A stretch of DNA of 64,000 nucleotides, taken from positions 124,001 through 188,000 of the forward strand of contig JAJFGU010000024.1 of NCBI GenBank assembly GCA_021775955.1. The letters run 5' to 3'. Positions 27,837 through 52,937 of this stretch are shown one piece after another. Position 1 is the first letter of the stretch, and every line of letters begins with the position of its first letter. Position numbers and translations under genes: made by a program. This stretch comes from Alphaproteobacteria bacterium (GTDB lineage: Bacteria > Pseudomonadota > Alphaproteobacteria > Micavibrionales > Micavibrionaceae). The notes beneath the pieces were generated by a model. The model worked only from the letters and a program-made list of their open reading frames with translations, did no database searches and was not told the origin of the DNA.

Positions 27837-27865
27837 TTGAAATTTAAGATTTTGTGCCCTATAAT
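27837..27865 (+). promoter_or_regulatory. Promoter of the tmRNA gene
   Basis: TTGAAA (27837-27842) and TATAAT (27860-27865) with the ideal 17-bp spacing; transcription would begin near 27872, at the hairpin GCCGGGC-TT-GCCCGGC (27873-27888) that opens the acceptor piece. The promoter lies at the end of the HAD-like gene region. Confidence 0.7.
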
Positions 27866-27870
27866 GGGAA

Positions 27871-28190
27871 TTGCCGGGCTTGCCCGGCTATGACGCTAAA
27901 CGTTTGACGGAATAAGCGTTGTGGACCCGGGGGCAGTACCCGGCGACTCCACCATTTAAGATCTAAGGCTTGTCAGGATAAGATTTGCGGGTTCTTAGAG
28001 TATGGGGTCGAAACAGGATCGACACACGTAGTAAAGGTTATAACTTGCGTCCGGCATGGTATCCACCGTTACCGGGCTATACACATAGTTGCAAATGACA
28101 ACTTTGTCGTAGCGAATGATAACTTCGCCACTGGTGAAGCTATCGCTGCTTAGTTTTCTAAGTAGGTATTAGCTACAAACTAATTCCTGT
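27871..28190 (+). ncRNA. ssrA: Transfer-messenger RNA, circularly permuted two-piece form
   Basis: The gene order is inverted, as in other alphaproteobacteria. The acceptor piece comes first and ends CGACTCC-ACCA (27944-27954); a processed spacer follows, then the coding piece begins GGGGTCG (28004-28010), which pairs with CGACTCC to close the acceptor stem. The tag reading frame begins at a GCG resume codon at 28112 and ends with TAG at 28151-28153, giving ANDNFATGEAIAA after the charged Ala, a typical ClpXP/SspB degradation tag ending in AA. tmRNA rescues stalled ribosomes. The adaptor SspB is encoded just downstream. The exact 3' end of the coding piece is approximate. Confidence 0.92.
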
Positions 28191-28217
28191 TCTCTAGACA
28201 AGGACAGGTGGGGTTTG

Positions 28218-28255
28218 GCCAGTTTCCTCGCAACAGAAAACTGGCCGTTTTTTTA
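28218..28255 (+). terminator. Rho-independent terminator of tmRNA
   Basis: GGCCAGTTT (28218-28226) and AAACTGGCC (28239-28247) form a perfect 9-bp stem with a 12-nt loop, followed by G and a T-run (28249-28255). It ends the tmRNA transcript. Confidence 0.8.
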
Positions 28256-34600: not shown

Positions 34601-34986
34601 ACCGGATTGGTGCAGGCGGCATGGGCAGATGCTGTTGCCAGAAGACAGAAGACAGAAAGCAGAAGGGTGCAAATTCCCCTCACCCGGCTTCGCCTTTGGC
34701 TCAGCCACCCTCTCCCCTGGGGAGAGGGATGCGCAGGGTTGGCGAGGCAAAGCCCGAGCCTTACCCGCAGCTGGGTGAGGGGAATAAAAATGCCAAAATG
34801 GTAAAACGCTCTTTTCATCCACCTGCCGTCATCGCCTGAATTTGCATCGCCTGAATTTGCATCGCAAATTCTAGGGCGATCCATACCATACCCATGGATT
34901 CCCCTAGGATTTCCTCGCAGAAATCCGGGGAATGACGGAATATGAGTCCGTACAAAATTCACAAAATGTAAAAACGTTTTTTTCAT
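31612..34986 (-). CDS. Secreted protein with three LamG domains and C-terminal beta domain
   Basis: 1124 residues from the ATG at 34986 (GTAGGAATAG upstream); a start at 34818 is also possible. Residues up to about 103 are low-complexity, encoded by dispersed repeats; the signal peptide core is about 104-120, ending ASAHA|AC. Then comes CTNPVGSAGDVYYNEQWRVP, a Cys/Trp module, and three LamG (concanavalin-like) domains, each opening with GL(V/I)xHWK and closing with VYDRxLxxxEI. Further C(D/N)GxxW modules sit between them (QYCDGEAWHAMG, QYCDGAKWVAIG). A C-terminal region of about 210 residues, Thr/Ser-rich and beta-like, is of unknown family. It probably binds glycans or proteins outside the cell. 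Confidence 0.8.
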   Translation of the reverse strand: MKKTFLHFVNFVRTHIPSFPGFLRGNPRGIHGYGMDRPRICDANSGDANSGDDGRWMKRAFYHFGIFIPLTQLRVRLGLCLANPAHPSPQGRGWLSQRRSRVRGICTLLLSVFCLLATASAHAACTNPVGSAGDVYYNEQWRVPQYCNDTAWVTMRPAFSGDALDNGLVGHWKLDETSGATINDSAGSNNGTWTDAVNNDVTEETANGYVDTSITFDGANDYVRVTNAASIDADNFTGMTVSAWIYPQTDGEAGEGRIVDKSDNSAARNGWRFTISDSGSCCNRLKFDGEFATTDMTRRTNTNAITLNEWQHVLATWDMGTDYTNVHIYVNGVEASYDFGVDGDGGFTDSQNLNIGNNTNGGRTFDGPIDDTRVYNRILSQKEITQLASMGPDPTRGLVGHWKLDEGTGTTAVDVGSATNDGTYTNSPTQSGGLIGGALEFSGDTGADATNDRVDIGDPGDGSLDFGSGSFSYGMWVYAPNNAGSFDMPWWKGGSSAGSAGYDMELGTGNWASGISDGDENEVLSFNGAPINDQWVHLFAVIDRSSDTHYVYVDGAEWDTNAMSGTFGSVSSSSPASIGALSTGQFPFLGKIDDVRVYDRALAPTEIAVIYGCTSPVGQRGAFVYNDDQNVMQYCDGEAWHAMGPNPGTGGAGCTNPARDEGVMIYNSDFNMMQYCDGAKWVAIGRFCSGGTTDGLIAHWKFEDGTGSTTANDYSANSNTGLLTSMDPATDWIPGIRGGALDFDGSDDKIIATDFADQLSAAAGTISFWANIDSIFPSNEYFFSASGANSHDPSIYRNTSDGKFRLVMNAVNSISTTTMAEDTWYHVAGTWDATTQRLYINGVEEDNDGVGTISPSGNTHLMGYNSGDNSNFRPDGMLDDMRVYDRALSAAEIAELSQASACPQTTADLDGAPISVARVQSQISTSTNPASVTLASTPVEGNLLVAIAAGRADSGDNSISGTGWTQHVYFDALSGNATNRRNLAIWSKIAGAAEPTAITTDISNGSSRLIVQEFAITGGTVAFDVTAETQGGTVDVTSISSGTTAASATADSLVITGLVTRDAPATAPTWTNGVANELGDTASGSIGIYTGYSHDTSAGAKESTASWTTARDASAAVVVFSITP
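34676..34782. repeat. 107-bp palindromic repeat, copy 1
   Basis: Begins CCCCTCACCC and ends GGGTGAGGGG, with an inner palindrome (CTCTCCCCTGGGGAGAG). A nearly identical copy is at 37413-37519. It is translated within the N-terminal region of the first LamG gene (residues about 68-104), directly before the signal peptide core. Confidence 0.9.
34830..34871. repeat. 15-bp tandem repeat in LamG gene 1 N-terminal region
   Basis: CATCGCCTGAATTTG occurs at 34830-34844 and 34845-34859, followed by a partial third copy. It encodes the repeated DANSG. An adjoining palindrome (GGATTTC...GAAATCC, 34907-34926) belongs to another dispersed element. Short tandem units of 15 bp keep the frame when their number changes. 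Confidence 0.8.
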
Positions 34987-34993
34987 TCTATTC

Positions 34994-37552
34994 CTACAAG
35001 CACCCGCCACCATTCGCCAAATTGGTGATTTCATCGGCACCCAAAACCCGGTCGTAAACCCGCACATCGTCAATGATACCGTCGAAAGTTCTAACCGGTG
35101 TGTCTATATTGCCAATATATAAATCCCACGTATCCGTAAAAGTTCCGACGCCGTCCGTAGCTGTAAGATAAGAAGGGACTTCCGTACCATCCACATATAT
35201 TTTGGCATTGGTAGCAGTTGTCGATTTATCCCAGGTGACGAGTACATGCTGCCAGGTATTGAGAGTGATCACATTGTCTCCGGATCTATGATAAAGATCT
35301 GTTGTCGAAAATTCGCCGGTAAACGAAAGTCTGTTTGGTCCGCCGCCATCGCCGAGTTGAAATCTCCAACCATCATGTAATGCGCCGGTGTTATCTGATT
35401 TATCAACAATACGCCCCTCACTATTTTCTCCGGTGGTTCTGGGGTATATCCAGGCAGAGGCCGTTAATCCGGTGAAATTGTCAGTATCAATAGCCGGATC
35501 GTTTGTAACAGTTACAGTATCATCGCCGCCATCAAAATCCAGCGCACCGCTTTTGGTGCCCGTGACCCAGTCGCCGGGCGGGGACATATTGGTCAGTGTA
35601 CCGTCATTGCCGTTGGCGGTGGCGTCAGCGGCGTTTGTACCGGAGGTTTCATCGAGTTTCCAATGCCCGACCAGTCCATTTGTCGGGCCGGAGCAGTACT
35701 TGCTGGCGCCCAGTGGCACCCAGGCCGCGCCATCGCAATATTGCATGATATTAAAATCGGCGTTGTAGATCATTGCGCCTTCGTCTTTTGTTGGGCTGGT
35801 GCAGCCCGCACCGCCCGCGCCGGGCACCGGACCCATGGCCTGCCACGCTTCCCCATCGCAATATTGCATGACGTTTTGATCGTCGTTATAGACAATCGCG
35901 CCACGTTGGCCCACCGGCGCGGTGCAGCCGGCAAGAACGGAAATTTCGGTAGGGCTCAGGACGCGGTCATAAACCCGCACATCATCGACGTAACCGTCCA
36001 TGGGATGATTACCGCTATCTGTTGCGCCGATAGCGGCATTATTGGTGCTGGATAAAGAGCTGACTGTACCCGCAATGGCGGATGTCGGACCGGCTGTACC
36101 GTCCAGATAGGTGGTTACGAGATCAGCCGTACGGTCAACCGTAACAAACAAATGCACCCATTGGTTAAGCGGTGTTGAAGAAAATTGCGTACAGAAATTC
36201 TCATCACCGTCCCCCTGACAGGCATTCCAGCTTCCTGTGCCAAGTTCCATATCATACCCTGCGTTAAGGGCGCTTCCACCACCTTTGTACCATGGCATGT
36301 CCCATGTTCCAGCATCCGTGCGGCCGTAATACCACAGGCCGTAGCTGAAATCTCCGGTACCGAAATCGAGGCTGCCGTCGCCAGGATCGCCAATGTCAAC
36401 GCGGTCATGGAGGGCGTCATTGCCCATCTCGCCATCAAAATCGAGCGCGCCGTTAACAATGCCGCCTGCATAGTTTGGTGTGTTCTCATAGGTGCCATTA
36501 TTGCCGCCTGAGCCGGAATCATAGGCGGTGGTGCCTTGCCCTTCATCCAGTGGCCAATGCCCGACCAGGCCGCGGGAGGGGTCGGGGCCCATAGAGGCAA
36601 GCTGTGTCATTTCACCGGCGCTTAAAGAACGGTCATAAAGCCGGACATCGTCAATGAGACTGTCATGGAGCGTAGTGGCAAAGCTCGTGTCTCCACCGAT
36701 ATTAAAAGATTGCCCGGTATCAGGGTTTTGAAGATCAAAGGTCATGGTTTTGGTGGTGCCGTCCTGCACCCCGTCGACATAAAAATGCAAATCGGGATAA
36801 TTAACAACAGCCGCAACATGGTGCCATTGCCCGTCCGCAATAACGGTAGTGGCTGTAAAGATTTCGTCAGTGGCACCATCGCCATGCCTGAATCCAAGAA
36901 TGCCATCGTCAAAGTGTAGGTCGTAATTTCTCTCAACATTTCCATCTGCTTCGTACACAATCTCGTTTTTCTCAGAATCCATCACGCTTGTCTTGATCCA
37001 TGCGGCGATAGTCAGATGATCGCCCAGCACTTCGAAAAGCGCCCTTTCTGCAACGCTGTCAAATTGTATGTGATGGGTAGCGCCATCAAAGTCGAACGCA
37101 CCGCCGACAATTCCACCTGTAGGGAGCCAGGCCGCCACTCCTGCTACATCCCCGGTTGTGCTTCCGACAGAATCGCTTGCTATGATACCGGCACTTTCAT
37201 CCAACTCCCAATGCCCGATCAGGCCTCTATCCAGTGCGTCGCCTCTGAAATTGCGGCGCATGGAAACCCAGCTCGTATCGTTGCAATATTGCGGCACGCG
37301 CCATTGCTCATTATAGCGTATTTGCCCGGCTGTGCCGGTCGGGTTGGTGCAGGCGGCATTTGCGGGGCTGGAGGACAGAAGGAAGAAGCCGGAAATCAGA
37401 AGGGTAAAAACTCCCCTCACCCGGCTTCGCCTATGGCTCAGCCACCCTCTCCCCTGGGGAGAGGGATGCGCAGGGTTGGTGAGGCTTTCGCCGAACCTTA
37501 CCCGAAGCTGGGTGAGGGGACTCATATATTTGCAAAAAAAGATAGATTGCAT
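34994..37552 (-). CDS. Secreted protein with three LamG domains
   Basis: 852 residues from the ATG at 37552; ATG at 37525 or GTG codons nearer the signal peptide are alternatives. Residues 10-47 are encoded by the 107-bp repeat; a hydrophobic core at about 48-60 ends SSSPANA|AC, a likely signal-peptidase site. The mature protein opens CTNPTGTAGQIRYNEQWRVP and has three LamG domains (about 90-300, 310-545, 610-845), each starting GL(I/V)GHW and closing VYDRxLxxxE. QYCDGEAW and QYCDGAAW modules lie between. It is a paralogue of the next gene and shares its repeat and N-terminus, so one arose by duplication. The gene lies directly after the giant fibre gene on the same strand. Confidence 0.82.
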   Translation of the reverse strand: MQSIFFCKYMSPLTQLRVRFGESLTNPAHPSPQGRGWLSHRRSRVRGVFTLLISGFFLLSSSPANAACTNPTGTAGQIRYNEQWRVPQYCNDTSWVSMRRNFRGDALDRGLIGHWELDESAGIIASDSVGSTTGDVAGVAAWLPTGGIVGGAFDFDGATHHIQFDSVAERALFEVLGDHLTIAAWIKTSVMDSEKNEIVYEADGNVERNYDLHFDDGILGFRHGDGATDEIFTATTVIADGQWHHVAAVVNYPDLHFYVDGVQDGTTKTMTFDLQNPDTGQSFNIGGDTSFATTLHDSLIDDVRLYDRSLSAGEMTQLASMGPDPSRGLVGHWPLDEGQGTTAYDSGSGGNNGTYENTPNYAGGIVNGALDFDGEMGNDALHDRVDIGDPGDGSLDFGTGDFSYGLWYYGRTDAGTWDMPWYKGGGSALNAGYDMELGTGSWNACQGDGDENFCTQFSSTPLNQWVHLFVTVDRTADLVTTYLDGTAGPTSAIAGTVSSLSSTNNAAIGATDSGNHPMDGYVDDVRVYDRVLSPTEISVLAGCTAPVGQRGAIVYNDDQNVMQYCDGEAWQAMGPVPGAGGAGCTSPTKDEGAMIYNADFNIMQYCDGAAWVPLGASKYCSGPTNGLVGHWKLDETSGTNAADATANGNDGTLTNMSPPGDWVTGTKSGALDFDGGDDTVTVTNDPAIDTDNFTGLTASAWIYPRTTGENSEGRIVDKSDNTGALHDGWRFQLGDGGGPNRLSFTGEFSTTDLYHRSGDNVITLNTWQHVLVTWDKSTTATNAKIYVDGTEVPSYLTATDGVGTFTDTWDLYIGNIDTPVRTFDGIIDDVRVYDRVLGADEITNLANGGGCL
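37413..37519. repeat. 107-bp palindromic repeat, copy 2
   Basis: CCCCTCACCC...GGGTGAGGGG, same organisation and near-identical to 34676-34782 (differences in the central region around CTTTCG versus CAAAGC). It lies in the N-terminal region of the second LamG gene, directly before the signal peptide. Confidence 0.9.
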
Positions 37553-37562
37553 TCTTTGTTCT

Positions 37563-40500
37563 CTAACTCTGATCGCGTCTACGGGCTCTGAGTATACCAC
37601 CAAAGACGAAGAAGAGTGAAGACATGCCGAGCATGAATAATGCGGCCACCATCACCCAGCTTTCCATCGAGGCTTTGCCGACATTGTTGCCTGCGGCCTT
37701 GTTGAGTAGCTCGACCTGTTTGGTCAGATTGCTCACCGCATCATGGACTTTGGCGGTTTCGGTCTTCATGGATGACAGTTCGGTGCGCAGGACGGCGTTT
37801 TCTTCGCGAAGCTCGTTGGTGGCCTCGATCAGCGGCGCGATAAAGCCCATGTAATTGACCGATTTGGTGCCCATTTCATCCTCGGCGGTTTTAACCAGCT
37901 CGGGGAAGGCTTTTTCAACCTCCTGCGCCATGACGCCAAGCTCGATGCGGTCCGTTGGGTCATCTTTCATCGTAAAGCTGTAAGTGTCGATCCGGCCCAG
38001 ACGCTCGATAATGTCATCGGCATCCAACGGGGTGATGTTGTCTTTCAGGCGCCTGTCCGATACGTCGGTGATGGTGCCGGTAAATTCAATATCGCCCGTG
38101 ACATCCAGTTCAACATCCGGATCGGTCATGCCGATACCGACATGGTGGACGCCGGAATTGTAGTAAATGTCATCGCCCGTGCCAGCCGTCCAGACCGAGC
38201 TTCCGCCGCCGCCGATCAGGTCCTGCCATGAGCCGGCCTGATAGCCTTCAAATTTATCGCCTGTAGAGTTATAACGGATGAGGCCGTTTTCAAGTGTAGC
38301 AGGGCGCTCGCCATCGGTTCCCGCTGGAATACGCAGGGCCCCTGTGCCGGACATGAATATATCGTCATCGGCCCGGATTGTCATGGCTATGCTTCCTGCG
38401 CCGGCTTCCAGGACCCTGAATTTCAGCTGGCCAGAATTGTCGGCGCCATCACGAGCGGCACCGATGTTGGCTATCTCATTTATGACGCCAGCATCATCCT
38501 GGATATTAAAGGCAATATCGGTTCCGAAGTCATCACCCATATTGGTGGTTTTGGTGGCAAGAATTCTTAAGGCAGACCACATAGCGTCTGTGGTTCTGTT
38601 GGTACGCTCCATTAAAGGCAGATCAGCAAAATCCGGTTCGGGCACATGGAGAAGACCTTCCGGCGTTGCCGTGCCGATACCAACGTTGCCCGCATTGTCG
38701 ATTACGAACGGTGTGGTGTCGGGATCGGAATCCAGCACGACGAAAGAATCGCCGTTACCGGCGTTGATAATCCCCAGAGGCTCGGCTGTTGAGCCTGGCA
38801 ATGTTGCAATATTAACAAGTGGTTGCCATGTTGTGCCGTTCGTGGATGCGGTGCTCTCTTCAAATACCATGCCAGCGGTATCATCAACTGTTAATTGCCA
38901 CTGCCATGTTTGTTCATTCGCGCCGTTGGCGATTGTGCTGCCCGCCGTTGCTGCGGTGATGTCGGATAAAGCACCACTACCACCGCCGCCGATCATATTG
39001 GCCCAGGCACCGGCTTCGTAGCCTTCGAATTTACTGGTGGTCGAATTATAGCGGATCATACCGTTGGATAATGAGGCCGGTTGTTGCCCGGTTGTCCCTA
39101 GCGGCACGGTCAGCGCGCCGGTATTGGCGCCGGTCAGGACAAAATTCGTGCCGTCAAACACCACGCCGTCGCCGACATTGGCGCCGGAGGCCACAACATT
39201 ATCCAGATCATCCAGCGTCATGCCGGTTGGTGCTGGTGCGCCGGTGACGCTTTCGATGCTTGAGTTGGTGAATTCCAGAGCCGTCGCGCCGCTATTGACG
39301 CGGACAAACATACCGCCGCTGGTATACGCGCCCGGTGTGTCGGTGAGGCCGGTGAAGCTTCCGCCGCCGCCGATCAAATCGGCCCAGGCTCCGGCTTCGT
39401 AACCTTCGAATTTGTCGTTGTCGGAATTGTAGCGGATCAAACCGTTGGATAGCGATGCCGGACGCTCTGCGGTTGTGCCGAGGGGCAAGAGCAGGGCGTC
39501 CGTGTTGGCGCCGAGGTCAAGCGAGACGATTGGTGTAGTGCTGCCGATACCGATGTTGCCGCCATTTTGAATATATATATGATCTGTATTATTTGTGCCT
39601 ATGCCCAGATCATCCCCGGCGCCAGTCCTGAGATAAGCTACAGCTGCGGCAGATGTTCCAAGTTTAATGTCTATAGCATCCGCATCGTTTCTGAGATGCA
39701 GCATTTGTTGCAGTGAGGTTCCTGTCTTAACATGCAAGGTTGAGGTCGGCGTAGTTTCTCCGATACCCATGCGCCCATTGGCATCATCCCAAACAAATGT
39801 TTCGTGCGTGCCGAAGGCACCGCTGGAGTTAAACTGAATTTCCGAATTGGCGCCCGCCGCTGTGCCCCCGGCGGTAATAATGTCGGTCCATGCACCGGCT
39901 TGGTAGCCTTCGAATTTGCCGTTATCACTGTTATAGCGCAGCATACCGTTGGAAACGCCGGCCGGGCGTTGCGCGGTTGTGCCTAGCGGAACAATAAGCG
40001 CGTCGGTATTGCCGCCGGTTGTCACCCAGTTGGTGCCGTCAAAGACAACGCCGTCACCAAGATTGGCGCCTGCGGCGGCCACGTCATCAAGGTCGTCAAA
40101 CACCATACCGGCCGGAGCAGGAGCACCAGTGACGGCTTCAACCGTAAGGTCGGTGAATTCCAGAGCGTTTTCAGCGCTGTTAATTCTTACATAGCGGCCA
40201 CCGCTGCTGAATGCGCCCGGTGTGTCGGTGAGAGTAAGGAAGTCAACTGCGCCAGCCCCGACCAAATTCGCCCAGGCACCGGCTTCGTAGCCTTCGAATT
40301 TATCGTTGTCGGAATTGTAGCGAATCAAACCGTTTTCTAGAGCAACCGGGCGCTCGCCGTCGGTTCCCGCCGGAACGCGCAGCGCGCCGGTGCCGTACAT
40401 GAATATGTCGCCTTTGTTGTCGATGCGCATGCGGTTTGCTTGTGACGTGCTGCCGTCCGGTACTGTCCAAAAATCAAATCGGCCCGGCGTGTCGTTCGCG

Positions 40501-43500
40501 CCCGGCGTACCATCGACCGAAACGATCATGGAAGCACTTTGTCTGTAGGCTGTTCCGTCATAGGACTGGAAGCCGTAATGGGCGATTTCATCTTGCGCGG
40601 CGACAATTGCTTTGGCCGCATCGGTTTCGCCGGTGGCTTTTCTATATAGGAGTACAGCACCTTCTGCATTGGTGCCATTAAAGGACTCAACCGTTAATCC
40701 CGTGTCACTTAAATCGCCAGCCAGGTGCAGTATAGATATCGGCGTCGGCGTGCCAATACCGACATTGCCATCGCTTTTGATCACCATTTCTGGTGCGTCA
40801 TCATTGTAATCGACAACACCGCCATCTTGAGCAACATGAAATTCCATACGGGCCGGCATATCACCATCGCCGGGCGTGTTGTCTACGATTGTAGAGATGA
40901 TGGATGCCTCTTCCCAGGTGTCGCCGTCATATCCGAAGATACGAAATGTTCCCAGGAAATCATCGTTTTGAACAACGGTTGGTCCAGCCATCGTGCCGCG
41001 CGCCCTACGCAATCCGTAATCCGGTTTATGGGGGTCCGCACTGTCACCATAGCTGTAAAGGTTCATATCGCCCGCGCCATCTTCACCTTCCATGACGAAA
41101 GTGCTCGCGGTGTCCTTAATGTGGAGGCTTGCGGTTGGATCGGTTAAGCCGATCCCAACCTGTGGAGCTGTGCCGGAGTTGTAATAGATGTCGTCGAATG
41201 ATCCGGCCGTCCAATGCCCGCCTTGACCGGTGGCGAAATTGATCCAGCCGCCATTTTCGTAGCCTTCGAATTTGGCGTTGTCACTATTGTAGCGGATCAA
41301 ACCGTTGGACAGGGATGCCGGACGCTGCGCATCCGTTCCCAGCGGGACCAATAAGGCGTCGGTATTGGCGCCAAGATCAAGGGATACAATTGGGTCAACT
41401 GTACCGATCCCGACATTGCCTGCATCGGTAAGAGTCATATGCGGCGTTGCCAGAGAAGTTCCGCCTGTCAGTCTTAGGCTGCCGTCATCTTCCTGTCCGA
41501 TTCCAGCCCAGTTCACGGTGCCGTCGGTATCAAGAGCGAACCATTGCTGGGCTTTTCCGCCCGTTCCCACATCCGCGGCAGAGGTTATGTATTCGTAAGA
41601 GTTGACTTGGGCGTGAACCTGCATCGTAACACTTGCATCATAAGGCGTATTCACACCGATTGCCATTTGACCGGTCGACGTATAGATAAAGTTCGCATCC
41701 GCGGCCATTGTGTTGCCGGAATTAAATTGTATCCCGCGGTCGGGAGCAGCGGCGATGGACGCGCCGGTGAGGATATCCTGCCAGACACCGGCCTGAAACC
41801 CTTCGAAGCGGTTATTGTCGGAGTTATAACGCAGCATACCGTTATCGGGCACGGTCGGTCGTTCGGCGGTTGTTCCGGCGTGAATGTCGATAGCGCCGGT
41901 TCCATAGAACAAAAGATCGCCATCAGATGTTAGGCGCATGCGTTCAACGCTTGTTGTATCTGTCGCTTCGCGTGTGTCGAAGCGCAGGTGCGTCGGTAGG
42001 TTTTCATTGGCAGGTGTTGCCCCTGCATCTATGTACGCCAGTATCTGGGCGCCCCGCTCGTATTGTGTGCTATCCCAGGCATAGTAGCGAGGCCCACCAA
42101 GTACATCATTAGCTTGAACGACGGCTTCCGCGCCTTCGGATCCGCGCGCAAAGCTGAAATCATAGTTGGCATCATCGGAAGTGTAGGCATAGTGCACTAC
42201 TTCGTTGGTGCCGCCAGAAATTGTCAGGATATCAGTTGGGTTTGCCGTGCCGATCCCGAGGTGGTGGTTTGTGTCATCCCAGACGAATGTCTCGTGCGTA
42301 CCGAAGACGCCATTGGAATTGAACTGAATTTCTGAATTGACGCCTGCCGCTGTGCCGACTGCGGCTCCCGTTGTAAAGTCGGTCCAGGCACCGTTCTCGT
42401 AGCCTTCAAATTTGTCGCTGTCGGAATTGTAGCGGATCAGGCCGTTGGACAGCGATGCCGGACGCTCGGCGGTTGTTCCGAGCGGTGTCAAAAGCGCGTC
42501 GGTGCGGCCACCCAGATCGAGCGATACGATCGGAGATGTTGTGCCAAGCCCAAGACCTGCGCTGGTGTAAACAAAATTCGCATCCGCCGCGAGTGTGTTG
42601 CCGGAATTAAATTGTATCCCGCGATCTGGGGCGGCGGCGATGGACGCGCCGGTCAGGATGTCCTGCCACAAACCGGCCTGGAAGCCTTCAAAGCGGTTGT
42701 TGTCGGAATTATAACGCAGCATGCCGTTATCGGGCACGGTCGGGCGCTCTGCGGTTGTACCGGCCATGATGTCAATCGCGCCGGTGCCTTTCAGGTAAAC
42801 GTCGCCGGTATCGTACTCCATACTCAGATGGCCCGTCCACGTTGCGCCGTCCCAGTATGCAAACAACATATCTTCACGCTCGCTTACTGTGGCGTAGGCG
42901 TCACCATAGGCTTCTATAGCCCAACCCTTGGCTTGGGCATCACCGACTGAGGCAGCGTCACCTGCTGTAAGAAGATGTAGGGCTGAGCCACCTGTCTCGT
43001 CTCCCTCTGCAACAAGTGAGCCCCAACCGGAACCATCGTAAATATGAAGGTCTATGGCCGGCGTTGTCGTGCCGATGCCGACATTACCATCACTGTCAAT
43101 GCGCATGCGCTCGACCCATGACGTGTCTGTGGCAGAACGTGTGTGAAAGCGCAGATGTGTCGGTATATCCTCGTCGGCAACGGTGGCACCTGTATCGACA
43201 TACATCTCAAAACCGGCGGCTAGCTCATATTGTGTGCCATCCCATGCTCTTGCACGGAATCCGCCGAGTTTATCATCGGCAGCCACAGGGTTGGGGGCAG
43301 CCTCGGTATTGCGGGCTCTGAGAGTTTCGAAATCAGCGCCTTCATTGGCGGTGTCAGAGTATGAAATATTCTCTATTTCCGATCCGTCAGTGGAAACAAC
43401 CGATAGAATGTTTGTTGGCGCCGTCGTGCCGATCCCAACTTGTGGCGCTGTGCCGGAGTTGTAATAGATGTCATCGAATGAGCCGGGTGTCCAGATGCCG

Positions 43501-46500
43501 CCACCGCCCGCGCCAGCTGTAACAAAATCCGTCCATGCACCGGCCTCATAACCTTCGAATTTGGCGTTGTCACTGTTGTAGCGGATCAAACCGTTGGATA
43601 AAGAGGCCGGGCGCTCCGCGACCGTGCCGAGCGGTAACAGGAGGGCGTCTGTATTGGCGCCGAGGTCGAGTGATACGATTGGATCAACTGTCCCTATGCC
43701 AACATTGCCCGTTCTTTCCAGGGTCATTATCTGCGATGTGGTTGCAATGTCGCGGAAAGTAAGATCATTGTTGCTTGCGTCATAGAACATTTCCACGCCA
43801 TCGGCACCAAGCCCTTCTCCGATCCTTAGGGAAGAGTCCTGGCTGTCATCAACCGTATCGGGTGCAATAATCACGACCGGGCTGCGGGTCAGGCCTCCGG
43901 AAACATGTAAATCTACAGTGGGGGTTGCCGTGCCGATCCCAACTTGTGGCGCTGTGCCGGAATTGTAATAGATGTCATCATCAGAGCCGGGTGTCCAGAT
44001 GCCACCACCGCCCGCGCCGGTGGTGACGAAGTCGGCCCAGTCGCCATCTTCATAGCCTTCGAATTTGGCGTTGTCGGAGTTGTAGCGGATCAAACCGTTG
44101 GACAAAGAGGCTGGACGCTGCACGTTCGTGCCGAGTGGCACAAGCAGGGCATCTGTGCGGCCGCCAAGGTCGAGTGAGACAACCGGCGATGTTGTGCCGA
44201 GGCCTAATCCAGCGCTGGTGTATACAAAGTTTGCATCCGCGGCCATCGTGTTGCCGGAGTTGAACTGAATCCCGCGATCGGGTGCGGCGGCGATGGACGC
44301 GCCGGTCAGGATGTCCTGCCAGATACCGGCCTGGAAGCCTTCAAAGCGGTTGTTGTCGGAATTGTAACGCAGCATGCCGTTATCGGGTGAAACCGGGCGC
44401 TCGGCGGTTGTGCCAGCGTTAATGTCGATCGCGCCGGTCCCCCTTAGATAAAGATCACCTGTGTCATATTCCAGCAAAAGTTGCTGCGAGGCTGTGGCAC
44501 CATTCCAGTATGACATGAAAAAATCGTTTTGTTCAGAGGCGGTGGGGTGGGTATCACCTCTTGCACCTAGAGACCAGCCAGTCGCATTCGCAGAAAGAAT
44601 CTGACTCGCGCCATCTCCTGAGGTTAGTAACTCTAGTATTGTGTTGCCGCTTTCATCACCTTCAAGGATAACAATGCTGCTGGCTGCGTCATCATATATA
44701 TGCAGATCACTGGCCGGTGATGCTGTGCCGATACCAATATCGCCGCCTGCTTCGATGCGCATACGCTCATCAGTTGTGGCCCGGCCTCCGGTGTAAAAAC
44801 GCATATCGGCAGAGGCATCGGCTGCGATCAGGTCAAGACCTGCCGCAACGCCGCCATAAGCACTGGAGGCTGCATCGCTGGCCAAAACGGTGAAGCGGTC
44901 GGCAAAATGCGCACCGAGAAGTGTGCTGTTGTCCGGCCATGCCCCAGTACCACCTTCGGATGTTGCGGACACAACCCATGTTCCGGCGCGTGCATTGGCG
45001 CTGTCCGTCGTGTTTTCGATGAAAGTAAAGGTGCCAACATCGCCGTCACGTTTGATGTGAAGGTCGGTAATTGGGTCAGTAATGCCGATACCGACGAAAG
45101 GGTTGGTGCCGGAATCGTAATAAATGTCGTTATCGGAGCCGCGGGTCCAGATACCGCCCCCGCCGCCGGTGGTCACAAAGTCGGTCCATGCACCAGCCTC
45201 ATAGCCTTCGAATTTGGCGTTGTCGGAGTTGTAGCGGACCAAACCGTTGGACAATGATGCCGGGCGCTCCGCCGTTGTGCCGAGCGGGAGGCCTACAGCA
45301 TCTGTGTTGGCGCCGAGATCTAATGATACGATGGGGTTGGCCGTGCCGACACCCATGAGGCCCGCATTGGTGAAGACAAAATTGGTGTTCGTGTCTATGA
45401 CTCCATTGGAGTTGAATAAAATTTCACGATCAAGTCCCGGCACTGTGTTGTTGGCGACATCGGAAGCAAGGAAGCAATTGTTCCCGGCCGCGTCACAATA
45501 ATTGGTTGCGCCGAGATCGCCGGTAACATCAACTTCGAGATCCTGCTCTCCGCCGGTGGTCAGAGTTGCCGAACCGACCGCGATGCCGCCAAGATTAAGG
45601 GCGGTCAGCGTATTGGCATTATTGCCGATGGTTAAGACCTCTTCGAGATTCTGGTCGTCAAAAGCGCTGGCCGAAACATATTCAAGACCGGTCGCGCCTG
45701 CATTGACACGCAGAAAGTCGAGGGCGACACCGGTGTAATCCGCAGGTGTGTCATTCAGATCGAGGAAAGTAATGCCGCCAGCCCCGGAGGTAATAATGTC
45801 CGACCATGCCCCGCCTTGGCGGGCTTCGTATTTGTTTGTGACTGTGTTGTAGCGCATCATGCCGTCAACTGGTGCGGCCGGTCGGTTGGTACCGTCACCG
45901 CGCGGGAAGAGGATCGCGTCCGTGCCCGTGACGTCGAGTGCGGCTAACGGCGTGTTTGTACCAATACCCATCAGTCCGGTGCTGGTGAAGACGAAATTGG
46001 CATCTGTGCCTGCGACACCGTTCGAATTAAACAGCACTTCACGATCAAGCCCCGGCACGGTGTTGTTGGCGACATCGGTGGCAAGAAAACAGTTGTTGCC
46101 GTCAGCATCGCAGTAATTGGTGGCACCGATGTCGCCGGTCACATCCACTTCGAGGGTCTGGTCGCCGGCGCTTACGGTTGTGTCGCCGATAAGTAGTTGT
46201 CCAGCTGCGGTGACGCGCATTTTCTCTGTGCCTGCCGTCGCAACGCCGATAGAATCGGCGGCGGCCCGGAACAGGCCAGTGGTCGCGGAGTTTGTAAAGG
46301 TAAGAGAAGGGTCAGCGGCGCTGCCGTCCTTAAGTTGTGCATCATTGGTAAAGGTTGCGATTCCGGTCACGCCCAGTGAACCACCGACTGTCGTGGCGCC
46401 GCTAATTGCAGCCGTGCCTGTGACATCCAAAGTCTGCGCCGGGGCGGCATTGCCAATGCCTATTCTTCCGGTGCTGGTAAAGACAAGGTTTGTGTCCGTG

Positions 46501-49500
46501 CCAAGCACGCCGCCGGAATTAAAGATCATCTCACGGTCCAGGCCCGGCGCACCGGTGGAGCCACCAGCAATATCGGCAGCGGTAAAACAGGTGGCGAGAT
46601 TTTCATCACAATATTTAAAGGTGCCAACGCGCGGGTCGAGGCCGGTTCCGGTTTCACCGAAGAGTGTGTCCCCTATATTAATGTAGTTGCTCGTAGCGGC
46701 CAGCGGTACATCGGCCTGGCGACCGATGATGATATTGCTAGCACCCGTCGTTAAAGTGGCAGCTGCATCCGTGCCGATAATCGTATTGTCGTCAGCGCCG
46801 GTCAGAATATTCTCGGCAGCTTGACGGCCAATAAAGACATTCTCTGATACATCGCTGGAAGCGGCTACGCCTTCTCCGGCAGCATAGCCCAAGACCGTAT
46901 TCCAACGGCCGGTTTCATTGTTGTTGAGGGTAAAACCGCCAAGCGCAGTATTTTGTGCGCCGGAAACAAGATCGCCCATCGCGGCTGAGCCAATGGCCGT
47001 GTTGTAGTTTCCTGATGCGCTATTGTTTAGGGCACCGTCCCCAACAGCGACCATGTCAGAAGCTGTTGTAATTGCATCGCCGGCTGAAGCGCCTACTACG
47101 ACGTTTCTGGCGCCACTTAGAGTCTCGTTCCCGCCCGAAATAAAGACATTGCTGTTGCTGCTAAATACAAGGCGGTTATTGGAGGTAAAGGTAAAGCCTG
47201 GCTCCGCATGGAAGGCGCCGTTTGAATTAAAGATGACTTCGCGGTGGCTGCCGGGTGCATTGCCGTTATTGGCGACGGAGGCGGCCGTAAAACAGTTATT
47301 GCCAAGCTCATCACAATATTGAATGGAGCCGGTATTGCCTTCCACATCAAGGAAGAGCTGCCCGCCTGTGCCGGTATCGGGTGATGTTTCATTAATGCCG
47401 ACATAGCCGTTGCTCGTAACTCTTAACCGCTCGGCGCCATTTGTAGAAACGCCTATCGTATCGGCGCCGATAGAATAAAGTCCGGTATTGGTATCATTGA
47501 TAAAGCTGAGGCTTGGTATTCCGGCTGTGCCGTTGCCCGCACGCAAAATATCTGTGCGCGTCGTGCCGGTGACATGAAGCGCTTCGCTTGGTGCGGTATT
47601 GCCGATTCCGACTTGCGGCGTGCCGGAGTTGTAATAGATGTCGGCGCCAGGGCCTTGCGTCCACAGTCCGGCGCTGCCGCCGAGAATGTCAGCCGCGGTA
47701 AAACAGTTTGTAAGGTCGGATTCGCAAAACTGGTTGGCGCCCAGCAGGTCGAAGTCTTCGGCGTCCTGTCCTTGGGCGTCATTGCCTTCGGTCAAAACAT
47801 CATCAAGATTTTGACCGCCGCCGCCGCCGCCGGAGCCCAAATCGGTTTCACAAGACCAGCCGACGCCATTGGTCCATTCCAGTTTTTGCGTGGCCGTATT
47901 ACAGTTGAGTGGTGGGCCGAGCTGATCGCCATTTACAACCATAGTGCTGCCGGCTGTAACATTTCCCGCAGTGGCAACAATATTGCCTGTTGTCGATGTA
48001 ATTCCGGTTCCGGCCGTGATGGTTGTTGTGATATCGGCGCTTCCTAAAACGTCCAGCGCATCGTCAGGAGCGGCCACGCCAATACCGATACGATCATTGG
48101 CAAGATCGCCGTAAAGCGTGTTGCCTATATTAAGGTAGTCACTGGTTGTGGCCAGAGGCACATCCGGTGGGGTAGCGCTGGAGCCGATGACGATATTATT
48201 GTCTCCAGTTGCCAAAGTCGGCGCGCCGCCATTGCCGATGACTGTATTATAAGTGCCTGTTGTTAATGCATTGCCTGCGCTACCGCCAACGATTGTATTG
48301 TTGTCCCCTGTGACCAGGGAGCCTGCGCCGCCACCGACCAGGATCGAACCGCCCATGGTGTTGTCTGTGTTCAAGACGGTGATGCCGTCGATTTTATAAT
48401 AACTATCGGCGTCAATCGCACCGGCGACATCCAGAGCGTCATTGGGGTTGGCAACGCCAATTCCGACATCGCCGTCATTTTGAACCAGTAATAAAGAAGT
48501 TGTGCCGCTGTCTCTTATATGTAGGGCGTTCTCGGTGTCGTCAGCTGTGGCACCTTGCACCAGTAATGTGTTGGTTGCAACCGCTGCCGTTCCGATACCG
48601 ACAATGTCCGGGCCGATATTGATCTCTACACCCGTACCGCCATTGGCATCAAGCTGCAGCACACCTGCATTGCCAAGCACTTGTGAGCCGGAGCCCCAGA
48701 CAATAGATTGACCATCGGTCATCATCGCATTGCCCGAGAGCTCTATATTGCCGGTGACGTCGAGGGCTTCCGAAGGATTATCGTTAAGGACACCAACCTG
48801 TCCGGTCCCACCACTGCTAAAGTGAATGCGGTTGCCTCCGAGGTCGGTCCATAGGTTGGCTCCGGGTGCACCGTCGGCAACGGATACCCAGCCATTGGGA
48901 TTATCACAAATTTGTAGGTGGTCAGGGTCGGACAATGTGTTGACCCTTAAGAGTCCGTGATTGGCTCCATTACAGGTTGTTAATACGCCCTGATCAGGAA
49001 ACAACATGGAGGCTGCGCCGAGTTGCAGGGCTGCGGTGCTGGTGGTCAGGTCAATCCCGGCGGTAAAAGAAGCGCCGCCTGTGACTTCGATGTCTTTGGC
49101 GATCTCTGCTGTATCCGGCGCGCCGGTTTTGATGTTCCAAAGACCGCCCGTAGCCGCTGCCGCGCCCTGATAATTAAATTCCATGACAAGATCGTCACCA
49201 CCTCTTGTGATAAGCCCGGGATGGTCGGTACAGGTGGCCTGGAAGGTTCTGTCCGGTCCGGCGGAGATAATGGCTATCATCGTATAGCCCGGGTCATCAA
49301 TGCCGTTACCGGCCAGACGTGTTTGGCCAACGCCGCCACAACCGGCGTCATCGACGATTGGGCCCGCATCCCATACGCAGTATCCGTAATCCGAGCTCCA
49401 CGGGTCCTGTCTGTTGGTGCCGATGGTGGCGGGCAGTGTACCACCGCCTGTCAGGCCCGCGATATTGGCAGCGTATTCCAGGGGTTCAACATAACCGTCA

Positions 49501-49745
49501 GAATCACAATCACCACTCAGGGCCTGCGCCGCTGATTCCAGCATGGCAAGCTTGGCGGCGATAGACATATGGCTTTCGGCCTGGGTGCGGCGGTTAACTT
49601 CGACCATCGTGCTTAAGGGGCCACGCATAGTGGCCATGATCCCGGCACCCAGAACACCGACGATCGCGACAGCGCCGAACAATGTAAAAAAGACATTGCC
49701 TCGTTCTGATCGCCTGCTCCTTAGCGTCGTTTTATGGTCCCTCAT
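37563..49745 (-). CDS. Giant pseudopilin-anchored, repeat-rich fibre protein with S74 self-processing domain
   Basis: About 4060 residues. N-terminus: RGNVFFTLFGAVAIVGVLGA is a prepilin-like helix; next comes a pseudopilin-like segment with DPWSSDYGYCVWDAG and IAIISAGPDRTFQATC. Residues ~200-3850 are tail-fibre-like repeats: the module (E/Q)RPxxLxNGxIRYNSDNxKFEGY(E/Q)AGxW occurs 14 times, between VGIGT and QYC(D/N)...NCF modules. Two stretches (~466-540, ~880-1023) have YadA-head-like repeats (NTAIGSAAMGDLVSGAQNTA). SDRRLKDNI (Ser ~3896) opens a peptidase S74/ICA domain, followed by a coiled coil and a C-terminal membrane helix with basic tail (GILRARRRDQS). ATG 49745 was chosen (GGAG 11 bases upstream); TTG 49781 is the alternative. 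Surface fibre is the likely role. Confidence 0.85.
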   Translation of the reverse strand: MRDHKTTLRSRRSERGNVFFTLFGAVAIVGVLGAGIMATMRGPLSTMVEVNRRTQAESHMSIAAKLAMLESAAQALSGDCDSDGYVEPLEYAANIAGLTGGGTLPATIGTNRQDPWSSDYGYCVWDAGPIVDDAGCGGVGQTRLAGNGIDDPGYTMIAIISAGPDRTFQATCTDHPGLITRGGDDLVMEFNYQGAAAATGGLWNIKTGAPDTAEIAKDIEVTGGASFTAGIDLTTSTAALQLGAASMLFPDQGVLTTCNGANHGLLRVNTLSDPDHLQICDNPNGWVSVADGAPGANLWTDLGGNRIHFSSGGTGQVGVLNDNPSEALDVTGNIELSGNAMMTDGQSIVWGSGSQVLGNAGVLQLDANGGTGVEINIGPDIVGIGTAAVATNTLLVQGATADDTENALHIRDSGTTSLLLVQNDGDVGIGVANPNDALDVAGAIDADSYYKIDGITVLNTDNTMGGSILVGGGAGSLVTGDNNTIVGGSAGNALTTGTYNTVIGNGGAPTLATGDNNIVIGSSATPPDVPLATTSDYLNIGNTLYGDLANDRIGIGVAAPDDALDVLGSADITTTITAGTGITSTTGNIVATAGNVTAGSTMVVNGDQLGPPLNCNTATQKLEWTNGVGWSCETDLGSGGGGGGQNLDDVLTEGNDAQGQDAEDFDLLGANQFCESDLTNCFTAADILGGSAGLWTQGPGADIYYNSGTPQVGIGNTAPSEALHVTGTTRTDILRAGNGTAGIPSLSFINDTNTGLYSIGADTIGVSTNGAERLRVTSNGYVGINETSPDTGTGGQLFLDVEGNTGSIQYCDELGNNCFTAASVANNGNAPGSHREVIFNSNGAFHAEPGFTFTSNNRLVFSSNSNVFISGGNETLSGARNVVVGASAGDAITTASDMVAVGDGALNNSASGNYNTAIGSAAMGDLVSGAQNTALGGFTLNNNETGRWNTVLGYAAGEGVAASSDVSENVFIGRQAAENILTGADDNTIIGTDAAATLTTGASNIIIGRQADVPLAATSNYINIGDTLFGETGTGLDPRVGTFKYCDENLATCFTAADIAGGSTGAPGLDREMIFNSGGVLGTDTNLVFTSTGRIGIGNAAPAQTLDVTGTAAISGATTVGGSLGVTGIATFTNDAQLKDGSAADPSLTFTNSATTGLFRAAADSIGVATAGTEKMRVTAAGQLLIGDTTVSAGDQTLEVDVTGDIGATNYCDADGNNCFLATDVANNTVPGLDREVLFNSNGVAGTDANFVFTSTGLMGIGTNTPLAALDVTGTDAILFPRGDGTNRPAAPVDGMMRYNTVTNKYEARQGGAWSDIITSGAGGITFLDLNDTPADYTGVALDFLRVNAGATGLEYVSASAFDDQNLEEVLTIGNNANTLTALNLGGIAVGSATLTTGGEQDLEVDVTGDLGATNYCDAAGNNCFLASDVANNTVPGLDREILFNSNGVIDTNTNFVFTNAGLMGVGTANPIVSLDLGANTDAVGLPLGTTAERPASLSNGLVRYNSDNAKFEGYEAGAWTDFVTTGGGGGIWTRGSDNDIYYDSGTNPFVGIGITDPITDLHIKRDGDVGTFTFIENTTDSANARAGTWVVSATSEGGTGAWPDNSTLLGAHFADRFTVLASDAASSAYGGVAAGLDLIAADASADMRFYTGGRATTDERMRIEAGGDIGIGTASPASDLHIYDDAASSIVILEGDESGNTILELLTSGDGASQILSANATGWSLGARGDTHPTASEQNDFFMSYWNGATASQQLLLEYDTGDLYLRGTGAIDINAGTTAERPVSPDNGMLRYNSDNNRFEGFQAGIWQDILTGASIAAAPDRGIQFNSGNTMAADANFVYTSAGLGLGTTSPVVSLDLGGRTDALLVPLGTNVQRPASLSNGLIRYNSDNAKFEGYEDGDWADFVTTGAGGGGIWTPGSDDDIYYNSGTAPQVGIGTATPTVDLHVSGGLTRSPVVIIAPDTVDDSQDSSLRIGEGLGADGVEMFYDASNNDLTFRDIATTSQIMTLERTGNVGIGTVDPIVSLDLGANTDALLLPLGTVAERPASLSNGLIRYNSDNAKFEGYEAGAWTDFVTAGAGGGGIWTPGSFDDIYYNSGTAPQVGIGTTAPTNILSVVSTDGSEIENISYSDTANEGADFETLRARNTEAAPNPVAADDKLGGFRARAWDGTQYELAAGFEMYVDTGATVADEDIPTHLRFHTRSATDTSWVERMRIDSDGNVGIGTTTPAIDLHIYDGSGWGSLVAEGDETGGSALHLLTAGDAASVGDAQAKGWAIEAYGDAYATVSEREDMLFAYWDGATWTGHLSMEYDTGDVYLKGTGAIDIMAGTTAERPTVPDNGMLRYNSDNNRFEGFQAGLWQDILTGASIAAAPDRGIQFNSGNTLAADANFVYTSAGLGLGTTSPIVSLDLGGRTDALLTPLGTTAERPASLSNGLIRYNSDSDKFEGYENGAWTDFTTGAAVGTAAGVNSEIQFNSNGVFGTHETFVWDDTNHHLGIGTANPTDILTISGGTNEVVHYAYTSDDANYDFSFARGSEGAEAVVQANDVLGGPRYYAWDSTQYERGAQILAYIDAGATPANENLPTHLRFDTREATDTTSVERMRLTSDGDLLFYGTGAIDIHAGTTAERPTVPDNGMLRYNSDNNRFEGFQAGVWQDILTGASIAAAPDRGIQFNSGNTMAADANFIYTSTGQMAIGVNTPYDASVTMQVHAQVNSYEYITSAADVGTGGKAQQWFALDTDGTVNWAGIGQEDDGSLRLTGGTSLATPHMTLTDAGNVGIGTVDPIVSLDLGANTDALLVPLGTDAQRPASLSNGLIRYNSDNAKFEGYENGGWINFATGQGGHWTAGSFDDIYYNSGTAPQVGIGLTDPTASLHIKDTASTFVMEGEDGAGDMNLYSYGDSADPHKPDYGLRRARGTMAGPTVVQNDDFLGTFRIFGYDGDTWEEASIISTIVDNTPGDGDMPARMEFHVAQDGGVVDYNDDAPEMVIKSDGNVGIGTPTPISILHLAGDLSDTGLTVESFNGTNAEGAVLLYRKATGETDAAKAIVAAQDEIAHYGFQSYDGTAYRQSASMIVSVDGTPGANDTPGRFDFWTVPDGSTSQANRMRIDNKGDIFMYGTGALRVPAGTDGERPVALENGLIRYNSDNDKFEGYEAGAWANLVGAGAVDFLTLTDTPGAFSSGGRYVRINSAENALEFTDLTVEAVTGAPAPAGMVFDDLDDVAAAGANLGDGVVFDGTNWVTTGGNTDALIVPLGTTAQRPAGVSNGMLRYNSDNGKFEGYQAGAWTDIITAGGTAAGANSEIQFNSSGAFGTHETFVWDDANGRMGIGETTPTSTLHVKTGTSLQQMLHLRNDADAIDIKLGTSAAAVAYLRTGAGDDLGIGTNNTDHIYIQNGGNIGIGSTTPIVSLDLGANTDALLLPLGTTAERPASLSNGLIRYNSDNDKFEGYEAGAWADLIGGGGSFTGLTDTPGAYTSGGMFVRVNSGATALEFTNSSIESVTGAPAPTGMTLDDLDNVVASGANVGDGVVFDGTNFVLTGANTGALTVPLGTTGQQPASLSNGMIRYNSTTSKFEGYEAGAWANMIGGGGSGALSDITAATAGSTIANGANEQTWQWQLTVDDTAGMVFEESTASTNGTTWQPLVNIATLPGSTAEPLGIINAGNGDSFVVLDSDPDTTPFVIDNAGNVGIGTATPEGLLHVPEPDFADLPLMERTNRTTDAMWSALRILATKTTNMGDDFGTDIAFNIQDDAGVINEIANIGAARDGADNSGQLKFRVLEAGAGSIAMTIRADDDIFMSGTGALRIPAGTDGERPATLENGLIRYNSTGDKFEGYQAGSWQDLIGGGGSSVWTAGTGDDIYYNSGVHHVGIGMTDPDVELDVTGDIEFTGTITDVSDRRLKDNITPLDADDIIERLGRIDTYSFTMKDDPTDRIELGVMAQEVEKAFPELVKTAEDEMGTKSVNYMGFIAPLIEATNELREENAVLRTELSSMKTETAKVHDAVSNLTKQVELLNKAAGNNVGKASMESWVMVAALFMLGMSSLFFVFGGILRARRRDQS

Positions 49746-52770: not shown

Positions 52771-52937
52771 CCACTGCTAAAAAGTTCGATAAATGGCCTG
52801 CAAACTCTGAATTTCTGCGCTTCCACTTCTCAAATACACCAATGTATTCTGCGATGCGGTTCTCGAAATCCAGAGTTTTCGGCGCATTTCTCTTTCTTTG
52901 TTAACAGCGGTTGGTTCTCAGTAAGACTTGTATAGCA

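Follow-up and report, generated by a model that had tools for sequence, protein, structure and literature searches.

We describe here a giant fibre gene in a 64,000-nucleotide stretch of contig JAJFGU010000024.1 (positions 124,001 to 188,000; referred to below as the window) from an alphaproteobacterium of the Micavibrionaceae. The encoded protein of 4060 residues begins with a predicted pilin-like domain, continues through a long body of tail-fibre-like modules and ends with a Peptidase_S74, or ICA, domain that is followed by a probable coiled coil, a membrane helix and a basic tail. The protein is one of a family, and the membrane helix after the S74 domain is widely kept among its relatives. 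On balance, we lean towards viewing this protein as a modular-pilin-like adhesion or recognition fibre that is anchored at both ends in the inner membrane, forms trimers through its S74 domain and is then released from its C-terminal tether by self-cleavage.

Layout of the fibre protein and its C-terminal helix

A sequence-only reading of the window had proposed a fibre that joins a pseudopilin N terminus to phage-tail- and YadA-like repeats, a self-cleaving S74 domain and a C-terminal membrane anchor. Pfam, hydropathy and motif counts place every feature that it listed within the 4060-residue frame, which runs unbroken on the minus strand from an ATG at 49745 to a stop at 37563 in an open-reading-frame check of the window; an alternative upstream TTG start would add 12 residues. 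The frame is also intact at its repeats. Tandem Repeats Finder reported a single array (25 bp x 2) within the gene, and the frames of relatives are similarly long (4244, 4747, 4765, 5036, 5041, 5186, 5544 and 5730 aa), so that an assembly error caused by repeats is unlikely in this genome of 2.3 Mb and 25 contigs. The parts of the gene are as follows.

37563..49745, minus strand: giant fibre gene, 4060 aa (open frame)
49698..49745, minus strand: short basic leader ending in RRSERG, residues 1-16, class III-like (sequence; Gly16 in 77 of the 77 ungapped rows of a 79-row alignment)
49530..49697, minus strand: pilin-type long helix including the membrane segment, residues 17-72 (AlphaFold helix 18-72; hydropathy)
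49131..49511, minus strand: beta domain resembling that of pseudopilins, residues 79-205; it carries the motifs DPW, SAGPD and DD plus four cysteines (model, alignment)
38076..49085, minus strand: fibre body of tail-fibre-like modules, residues 221-3890 (sequence, motif count)
48156..48314, minus strand: first YadA-head-like stretch, residues 478-530 (motif count)
46701..47123, minus strand: second YadA-head-like stretch, residues 875-1015 (motif count)
38226..45854, minus strand: array with 14 RYN..G.W modules, residues 1298-3840 (motif count)
37890..38060, minus strand: Peptidase_S74 / ICA domain, residues 3896-3952 (Pfam, Foldseek)
38058..38060, minus strand: predicted nucleophile Ser3896 (alignment; partner Lys3901 at 38043-38045)
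37695..37853, minus strand: long post-S74 helix, probable trimeric coiled coil, residues 3965-4017 (structure model)
37599..37658, minus strand: C-terminal membrane helix, residues 4030-4049 (hydropathy, structure model)
37566..37598, minus strand: basic tail GILRARRRDQS, predicted to be cytoplasmic (sequence)

Hydropathy is maximal at residues 18-36 and 4031-4049, with the N-terminal segment RGNVFFTLFGAVAIVGVLGA at residues 15-34 and the motif DPWSSDYGYC at residues 114-123. The body (residues 221-3890) is enriched in Gly, Ala, Thr, Asp and Leu, and the whole protein counts 182 Lys and Arg against 504 Asp and Glu. Its modules comprise 14 copies of RYN...(F/Y)E...G.W (residues 1298-3840) and 22 copies of VGIG..P..LxV, together with seven YadA-head-like motifs in two clusters (motif starts 483-517 and 881-1004). 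The two head-like stretches are what a YadA-type trimeric autotransporter adhesin would offer, but the Pfam scan detected no YadA anchor family at E values up to 1, and the C terminus models as an S74 domain plus a single alpha-helical membrane segment, which makes such an adhesin highly improbable.

The PF13884 match covers residues 3896-3952 and profile positions 1-58 of 58 (E = 1.2e-15; bit score 57.9, cut-off 22). SDRRLKDNI begins at residue 3896, and the Ser-x4-Lys dyad S3896/K3901 is kept in 18 of 18 rows of the S74 alignment as well as in the S74 domains of all 79 relatives, so that the predicted nucleophile is retained. In a model of the C-terminal region, the S74 domain leads into a 53-residue helix and then into a second helix holding the membrane segment. 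Foldseek matched the S74 model best to three chains of the MyRF ICA structure 7dc3 (E = 9.5e-7 to 4.5e-6), with the phage ICA structures 3gw6 and 3gud ranking after them.

A membrane helix follows the S74 domain in 49 of the 79 relatives, and the tail behind the C-terminal helix carries a charge of at least +2 in 44 of 48. The S74 domain and the N-terminal domain share a frame in 30 relatives, 25 of which have the helix (26 of 31 when the window is included). Of 17 complete named members, a set that shares part of its genomes with the 30, 15 have the helix as well. Elsewhere in the phylum it was seen once in 26 proteins and among viral S74 proteins in 0 of 72 (from the best 80 of 411), giving Fisher p values of 5.5e-8 and 4e-19, respectively, both uncorrected for kinship. 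Within the genome itself, the helix occurs solely in the window's copy of four S74 genes, the other three being judged by reading.

These counts depend on the following choices. The 91 S74 rows included four from the genome itself; G124:C301 (which contains stops), G188, G074, G141, G107, G140 and G187 were left out, and L142, which runs into N, was dropped from the 80 rows taken, leaving 79. "Same frame" denotes S74 and N-domain rows that share genome and frame length. L168 (1.46) and L193 (1.53) were scored as lacking the helix and L192 (1.66) and L132 (1.69) as having it, the latter two being possibly amphipathic. For the phylum control, the best locus was taken from each of 29 among 53 other matching genomes; three were too short and 26 were measured, with L266 probably misread and the lone positive, L271 (1.67), looking amphipathic. 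Among the best 80 viral relatives, seven had no readable motif and one was short, which left 72. The 17 complete members were those whose frame was closed and had an S74 motif close to its end, and members missed by that pattern (perhaps L112) are uncounted.

The N-terminal domain and its relatives

An AlphaFold model of the N terminus, made with a 79-row alignment of the window and named loci (predicted local distance difference test score [pLDDT], 87.3; predicted template modelling score [pTM], 0.76), has a helix at residues 18-72 and then a beta-sheet. The N terminus is accordingly predicted to form a pilin-like helix plus beta domain, as the sequence-only reading had supposed. A second structural aligner, covering 31 chains, listed seven PDB entries, all of them either pseudopilins of type II secretion or type IV pilins (five major pseudopilins, from E. 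coli, V. vulnificus, PulG twice and EpsG; a model of the Xcp pseudopilus, XcpGHIJK; and a type IVb pilus), at Z scores of 6.9 to 5.4, a level that the aligner calls middling, with the caution that a Z below 8 may reflect a common arrangement. A PDB sequence search with an N-domain alignment returned nothing at E values up to 1.

Conserved positions include D114 (79/79), W116 (78/79), G163 (79/79), D184 (79/79) and D185 (78/79), as well as the cysteines C123 and C172 (both 79/79), C80 (67/79) and C136 (66 of 69 ungapped rows). The ordered DPWG, SAGPD and DD motifs are ones that we take to be pseudopilin motifs, and their conservation in this order makes a chance resemblance to pseudopilins less likely. 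In predicted fold and, presumably, in these motifs, the domain resembles the major pseudopilins GspG and PulG, from which it differs by four mostly conserved cysteines, a giant C-terminal extension and the lack of a glutamate at position +5 after Gly16 (Glu5). The latter residue is found in 0 of 77 ungapped rows, the position being occupied by Thr in 36, Ala in 25, Met in 12 and Leu in 4. The leader can be short, basic and prepilin-like in many Micavibrio relatives, with longer leaders possible in several frames (e.g., L018 and L025). In the part of the 3G20 pseudopilin report that bears on it, the Ca loop is given as PGPDGVPNTEDD (PMC3396595); in the fibre, a longer, cysteine-bearing loop splits the two parts, before the DD.

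The N-domain, taken as the first 220 residues, was matched in 90 of the 193 genomes of relatives, although some of the weaker matches (a few) extend over the helix only, and it occurs in 75 named loci and 86 frames. Its closest named carriers are Micavibrio and metagenome-assembled genomes (MAGs) labelled "Alphaproteobacteria bacterium", and most named carriers are Micavibrio or unplaced alphaproteobacterial MAGs; the remainder belong to Nitratireductor, Hyphomicrobium, Methylobacterium, Stappia, Stella, Mesorhizobium and Microvirga. By its closest named carriers, the source organism is Micavibrio-like, a relative of bacteria that feed on other bacteria. Across 385 genomes sampled evenly from the class, 15 matched at an E value of 1e-3 or better, many of them weakly. 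What lies downstream of the domain varies, from S74 fibres to tails read as RCC1-like, LamG-like or other, and some genomes hold three N-domain copies in a row. Among 105 frame lengths (stronger rows, with second pieces, fragments under ~100 aa and weak helix-only rows left out), 28 are of at least 2000 aa and 9 of at least 4000 aa, and many others are cut by contig ends. Recognition of the N-domain gives a handle on ~100 unnamed, often giant, frames.

The S74 domain and the tail-fibre-like modules would also be at home in a prophage or plasmid tail-fibre gene, and 142 phage records match the S74 part. None of these records covers 80% of the query, and among the 15 phage matches listed, none extends beyond query residue 134, just short of the helix. 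Against such an origin, searches of 50,697 phage and 72,556 plasmid records gave no N-domain match, and no relative of the domain is encoded in any of 69 candidate viral stretches. The neighbouring genes also argue against it, as three gene types of the window lie close to the fibre again in the 75 named loci: ABC1 kinase in 30, DotI in 26 and the acetyl-CoA-synthetase type in 23 (identities by BLAST; counts from named loci that reach only 10 kb). There is very little chance that the gene belongs to a prophage or plasmid.

Proposed tethering, release and export

The N-terminal helix, taken together with a C-terminal helix that bears a basic tail, leads to the prediction that both ends of the fibre lie in the inner membrane and its body in the periplasm. 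In the sequence of events that we propose, Sec would insert the protein so that the pilin-like helix rests in the inner membrane, the 3,670-residue body would be placed in the periplasm, and at the C-terminal end the S74 (ICA) domain and coiled coil would be followed by the second inner-membrane helix, with the basic tail staying cytoplasmic. Three chains would trimerise via the ICA domain and the coiled coil, and correct trimerisation would enable the Ser3896/Lys3901 dyad to cut before Ser3896. The ICA domain, coiled coil and C-terminal helix would then remain in the membrane and the outer end of the fibre would be freed, as in MyRF; only then would the fibre exit the periplasm, C-terminal end first, on its pilin base. 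A far end tied to the membrane would block the exit of a long trimeric fibre, and trimer-dependent self-cleavage would untie it. A rough estimate of fibre length, scaled per residue from Bd3182 (about 550 Å; cut at residue 782), is ~0.26 micrometre.

Rather more tentatively, we suggest that the S74 domain and its own membrane helix act as a release checkpoint that keeps both ends of the fibre leashed to the inner membrane while its three chains fold together, with trimer-dependent self-cleavage licensing the export of a quarter-micrometre, pilin-borne fibre for prey contact. Such a leash would replace a separate chaperone or quality-control protease and would make the protein a bacterial counterpart of MyRF in an order of presumed predators. 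With the membrane helix behind it, S74, a folding device of phages, would become a possible switch for release.

The components of this scheme are already known separately, as prepilin-plus-S74 modular pilins, S74-ended trimeric Bdellovibrio fibres and the S74 domain plus membrane helix of MyRF. In the passages concerned, a survey of modular type IV pilins names architectures that combine N_methyl with S74 or with a lectin domain (PF13385), and notes prepilin plus S74 with S74 as a predicted peptidase (Raynaud et al. 2021, PMC8179133). As in the fibre, a pilin module there bears large extra domains. However, those pilins were found by a required N_methyl motif, which the fibre lacks; the most extreme multi-domain case described there has 860 residues, compared with 4,060 here; and those passages mention no C-terminal membrane helix, which the fibre has. 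The mosaic adhesive trimer (MAT) fibres of Bdellovibrio are described in their report's main text as S74-ended, trimeric, self-cleaved at SDxxxK, surface displayed and mosaic, with self-cleavage demonstrated for Bd3182 (PMC10769870). They have a signal peptide and a beta-rich N-domain of ~130 aa and are typically ~1,000 aa long, and by these descriptions the fibre is set apart by its pilin-like membrane anchor, its 4,060 aa and its post-S74 membrane helix; the words "transmembrane" and "Micavibrio" are absent from that main text. How MAT fibres are held on the cell awaits study, according to the same text, and the family described here offers one answer, a pilin-like base, to fibre anchoring in another predator-containing lineage. 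For the eukaryotic membrane-tethered transcription factor MyRF, the relevant sections of PMC8326128 give the dyad S587/K592 and trimer-dependent self-cleavage, and for endoNF the dyad S911/K916, both with the Ser-Lys spacing of S3896/K3901. In MyRF, too, the ICA domain precedes a C-terminal coiled coil, with a membrane helix coming next, a likeness of layout from which we claim no descent; MyRF releases a transcription factor on the cytoplasmic side, whereas the fibre is presumed to be periplasmic. The eukaryotic layout gains a bacterial parallel.

In our searches of the openly accessible literature, we found no publication describing the pilin-like N-domain family and no report of a membrane helix after a bacterial S74 domain or of Micavibrio fibres of comparable size, nor did we meet there the combined layout of pilin-like start, S74 and membrane helix. 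The sequence-only reading's remark that no described system has this order of parts thus holds for the combination and not for the parts, which have been published. Its proposal of double anchoring and C-terminal release is compatible with the anatomy and with the wide retention of the post-S74 helix; anchoring and release themselves we infer. Its third suggestion, that a pilin-like machine places the fibre outside, is so far not supported, given the lack of an N_methyl match and of Glu5 and the result for Stella.

Several observations weigh against our proposal. The C-terminal model is of modest quality (pLDDT 74; pTM 0.46), and, besides the middling Z scores, Foldseek returned no match under an E value of 1e-3 for the N-terminal model. 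At the profile level, Pfam T2SSG (PF08334) reached only an E value of 0.3 in 1 of 26 members, below the cut-off, and N_methyl (PF07963) gave no match for the fibre gene either in the Pfam scan or in a search of its own genome that found 11 places. An hhalign comparison with one PulG sequence gave a probability of 25%, over the helix only. An extra hydrophobic stretch precedes the pilin helix in Stella, in Mesorhizobium (L079) and in a Rhodospirillales MAG (L096), which fits poorly with prepilin processing in those carriers. The C-terminal helix is absent from five same-frame S74 members in two genomes (G114, with four of them, and G111), from the named members L072 and L088 and perhaps from L112, whose S74 motif was missed by the pattern. 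Finally, the 5' ends of 20 S74 genes outside the same-frame set were read as Sec-type in 11 cases, classical prepilin in 3 and unclear or internal in 6; since L210 and L214 combine a Sec-type start with the helix, the latter is not confined to proteins with a pilin-like start.

How the fibre would leave the cell is where the alternatives diverge. The protein could sit as a genuine tip subunit on a type IV filament, its leader cut after Gly16 by a prepilin peptidase and the fibre pushed through a secretin by a filament that a type IV pilus, Tad or type II secretion system-like machine assembles beneath the trimeric pilin base; the pilin-like model, the RRSERG leader and the invariant Gly16 are in keeping with this. 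The tip pseudopilin GspK, too, lacks Glu5. The genome encodes six T2SSE matches and three A24 prepilin peptidases, which, read by size and order, fall into a PilB/PilT/PilU group with an A24 peptidase (contig C12), a Tad-like set (contig C14), DotB (contig C3) and a cluster of T2SSE, secretin and GN-type pilin (contig C15). A T2SSE ATPase was matched in 7 of 8 carriers outside Micavibrio and an A24 peptidase in 11 of 12 other carriers. In both counts the carrier without a match is Stella, whose record may not be a whole genome. Against a tip subunit stand this lack of a match to either enzyme in Stella, the missing N_methyl match and the kind of ATPase found: 12 of the 15 T2SSE matches of the eight carriers are closest to the genome's own Tad-like ATPase on C14 and one to DotB, the remaining two, the weakest, have no BLAST match, and PilB was never the best match. 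Likewise, no machine gene except DotI was recognised among the commonest neighbours in the 75 named loci. We consider a tip subunit possible, although it is not the explanation that we favour.

If no filament were involved, the N-domain would be a plain, pilin-derived inner-membrane anchor of a fibre that spans the periplasm or is slowly released. The Stella result, the further hydrophobic stretch that some carriers have ahead of the helix, and the lack of Glu5 and of an N_methyl match are accommodated in this way, but a fibre of ~0.26 micrometre would be too long for the periplasm, and the short, basic leader that is possible in many Micavibrio relatives, if longer in several frames, recalls a prepilin. 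A mere anchor therefore seems rather unlikely to us. Returning to the tethered and self-released fibre that we favour, we give more weight to its tether-and-release step than to its pilus-export step, because the T2SSEs of the carriers are Tad-like, DotB or too weak to place and because Stella showed neither ATPase nor peptidase.

Neighbouring genes and other pilin-like proteins of the genome

Two LamG-repeat proteins are encoded downstream of the fibre, and both recur in 5 of the 75 named loci.

34994..37603, minus strand: LamG-repeat protein with a Sec-type signal by reading (Pfam); the true start is probably downstream of the mechanical open-reading-frame start
31612..35073, minus strand: second LamG-repeat protein of the same kind (Pfam)

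The first of these shares a YN...QYC...W motif. A palindromic element resembling repetitive extragenic palindromes is present in two copies, at 37412-37520, just past the fibre gene, and at 34673-34785, before the second LamG gene, with arms of 31 and 30 nt that are 80-81% complementary; both lie within the mechanical starts of the LamG frames. The ABC1 kinase and DotI genes lie upstream of the fibre, DotI being the second gene upstream. A Wzy_C O-antigen-ligase-type protein with tetratricopeptide repeats is encoded nearby (window 52911-54887) and adjoins the fibre in 4 of the 75 named loci. Wzy_C-type proteins can glycosylate pilins.

Besides the fibre, the genome has three more S74 genes. 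One encodes a protein of 727 aa that starts as a classical prepilin, with GFTLIEL; the second (L006 4939-6021) is cut by a contig end, lacks its N terminus and adjoins DotD/DotC/DotB-type genes; the third is phage-like by reading. Seven of the 11 N_methyl places lie in frames of 421-820 aa, six of which carry VGIG..P-type modules by reading. The cell thus probably makes several modular pilins, the giant fibre being the largest seen here. Most of the classical prepilins (417-809 aa) in L240, L241, L242 and L243 have tail-fibre-like modules and their C termini differ; some N_methyl matches lie at contig ends, perhaps because repeats broke the assembly.

None of the pilus or secretion groups of the genome adjoins the fibre except DotI. 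Two GN/GS-type pilin-like proteins (242 and 254 aa; L237 4095-5602), with no Pfam match, are encoded near a T2SSE ATPase and a secretin, and a third occurs in L010. These proteins resemble the fibre's helix and might mark its machine. A type IVB secretion system (T4BSS) set on contig C3 (L239 and L006) comprises a DotB-type ATPase, T4SS_TraI/DotC, DotD, a TrbI-like protein, DotH, DotI and TcpQ. Export of the fibre by a T4BSS was considered and rejected, as DotI occurs in 141 of 193 relatives compared with 90 for the fibre domain; DotI is close to being a core gene of the order, and its nearness is therefore uninformative for export. The same DotI count contrasts with the M. aeruginosavorus genome paper, which, in its text on this point, reports having seen no sign of such a type IV system (PMC3189940).

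The PilV shufflon adhesins of IncI plasmids, as outlined in part of PMC9045228, are pilins with swappable C-terminal adhesins, and, as in their setting, a T4BSS is also present in the genome of the fibre. Unlike PilV, the fibre has chromosomal neighbours, no plasmid match and, in the four carrier loci tested, no cassette-like inverted repeats. Five carriers outside Micavibrio (L066, L067, L082, L096 and L105) have, close by, genes that read as serine-recombinase-like. Shufflon or invertase switching was rejected, as L066 and L067 have no inverted repeat of at least 18 bases and the four pairs in each of L082 and L105 are not cassette-like.

Elsewhere in the window, ARAGORN marked a transfer-messenger RNA with an asterisk at 27862-28244; its tag is ANDNFVVANDNFATGEAIAA, in which ANDNF occurs twice.

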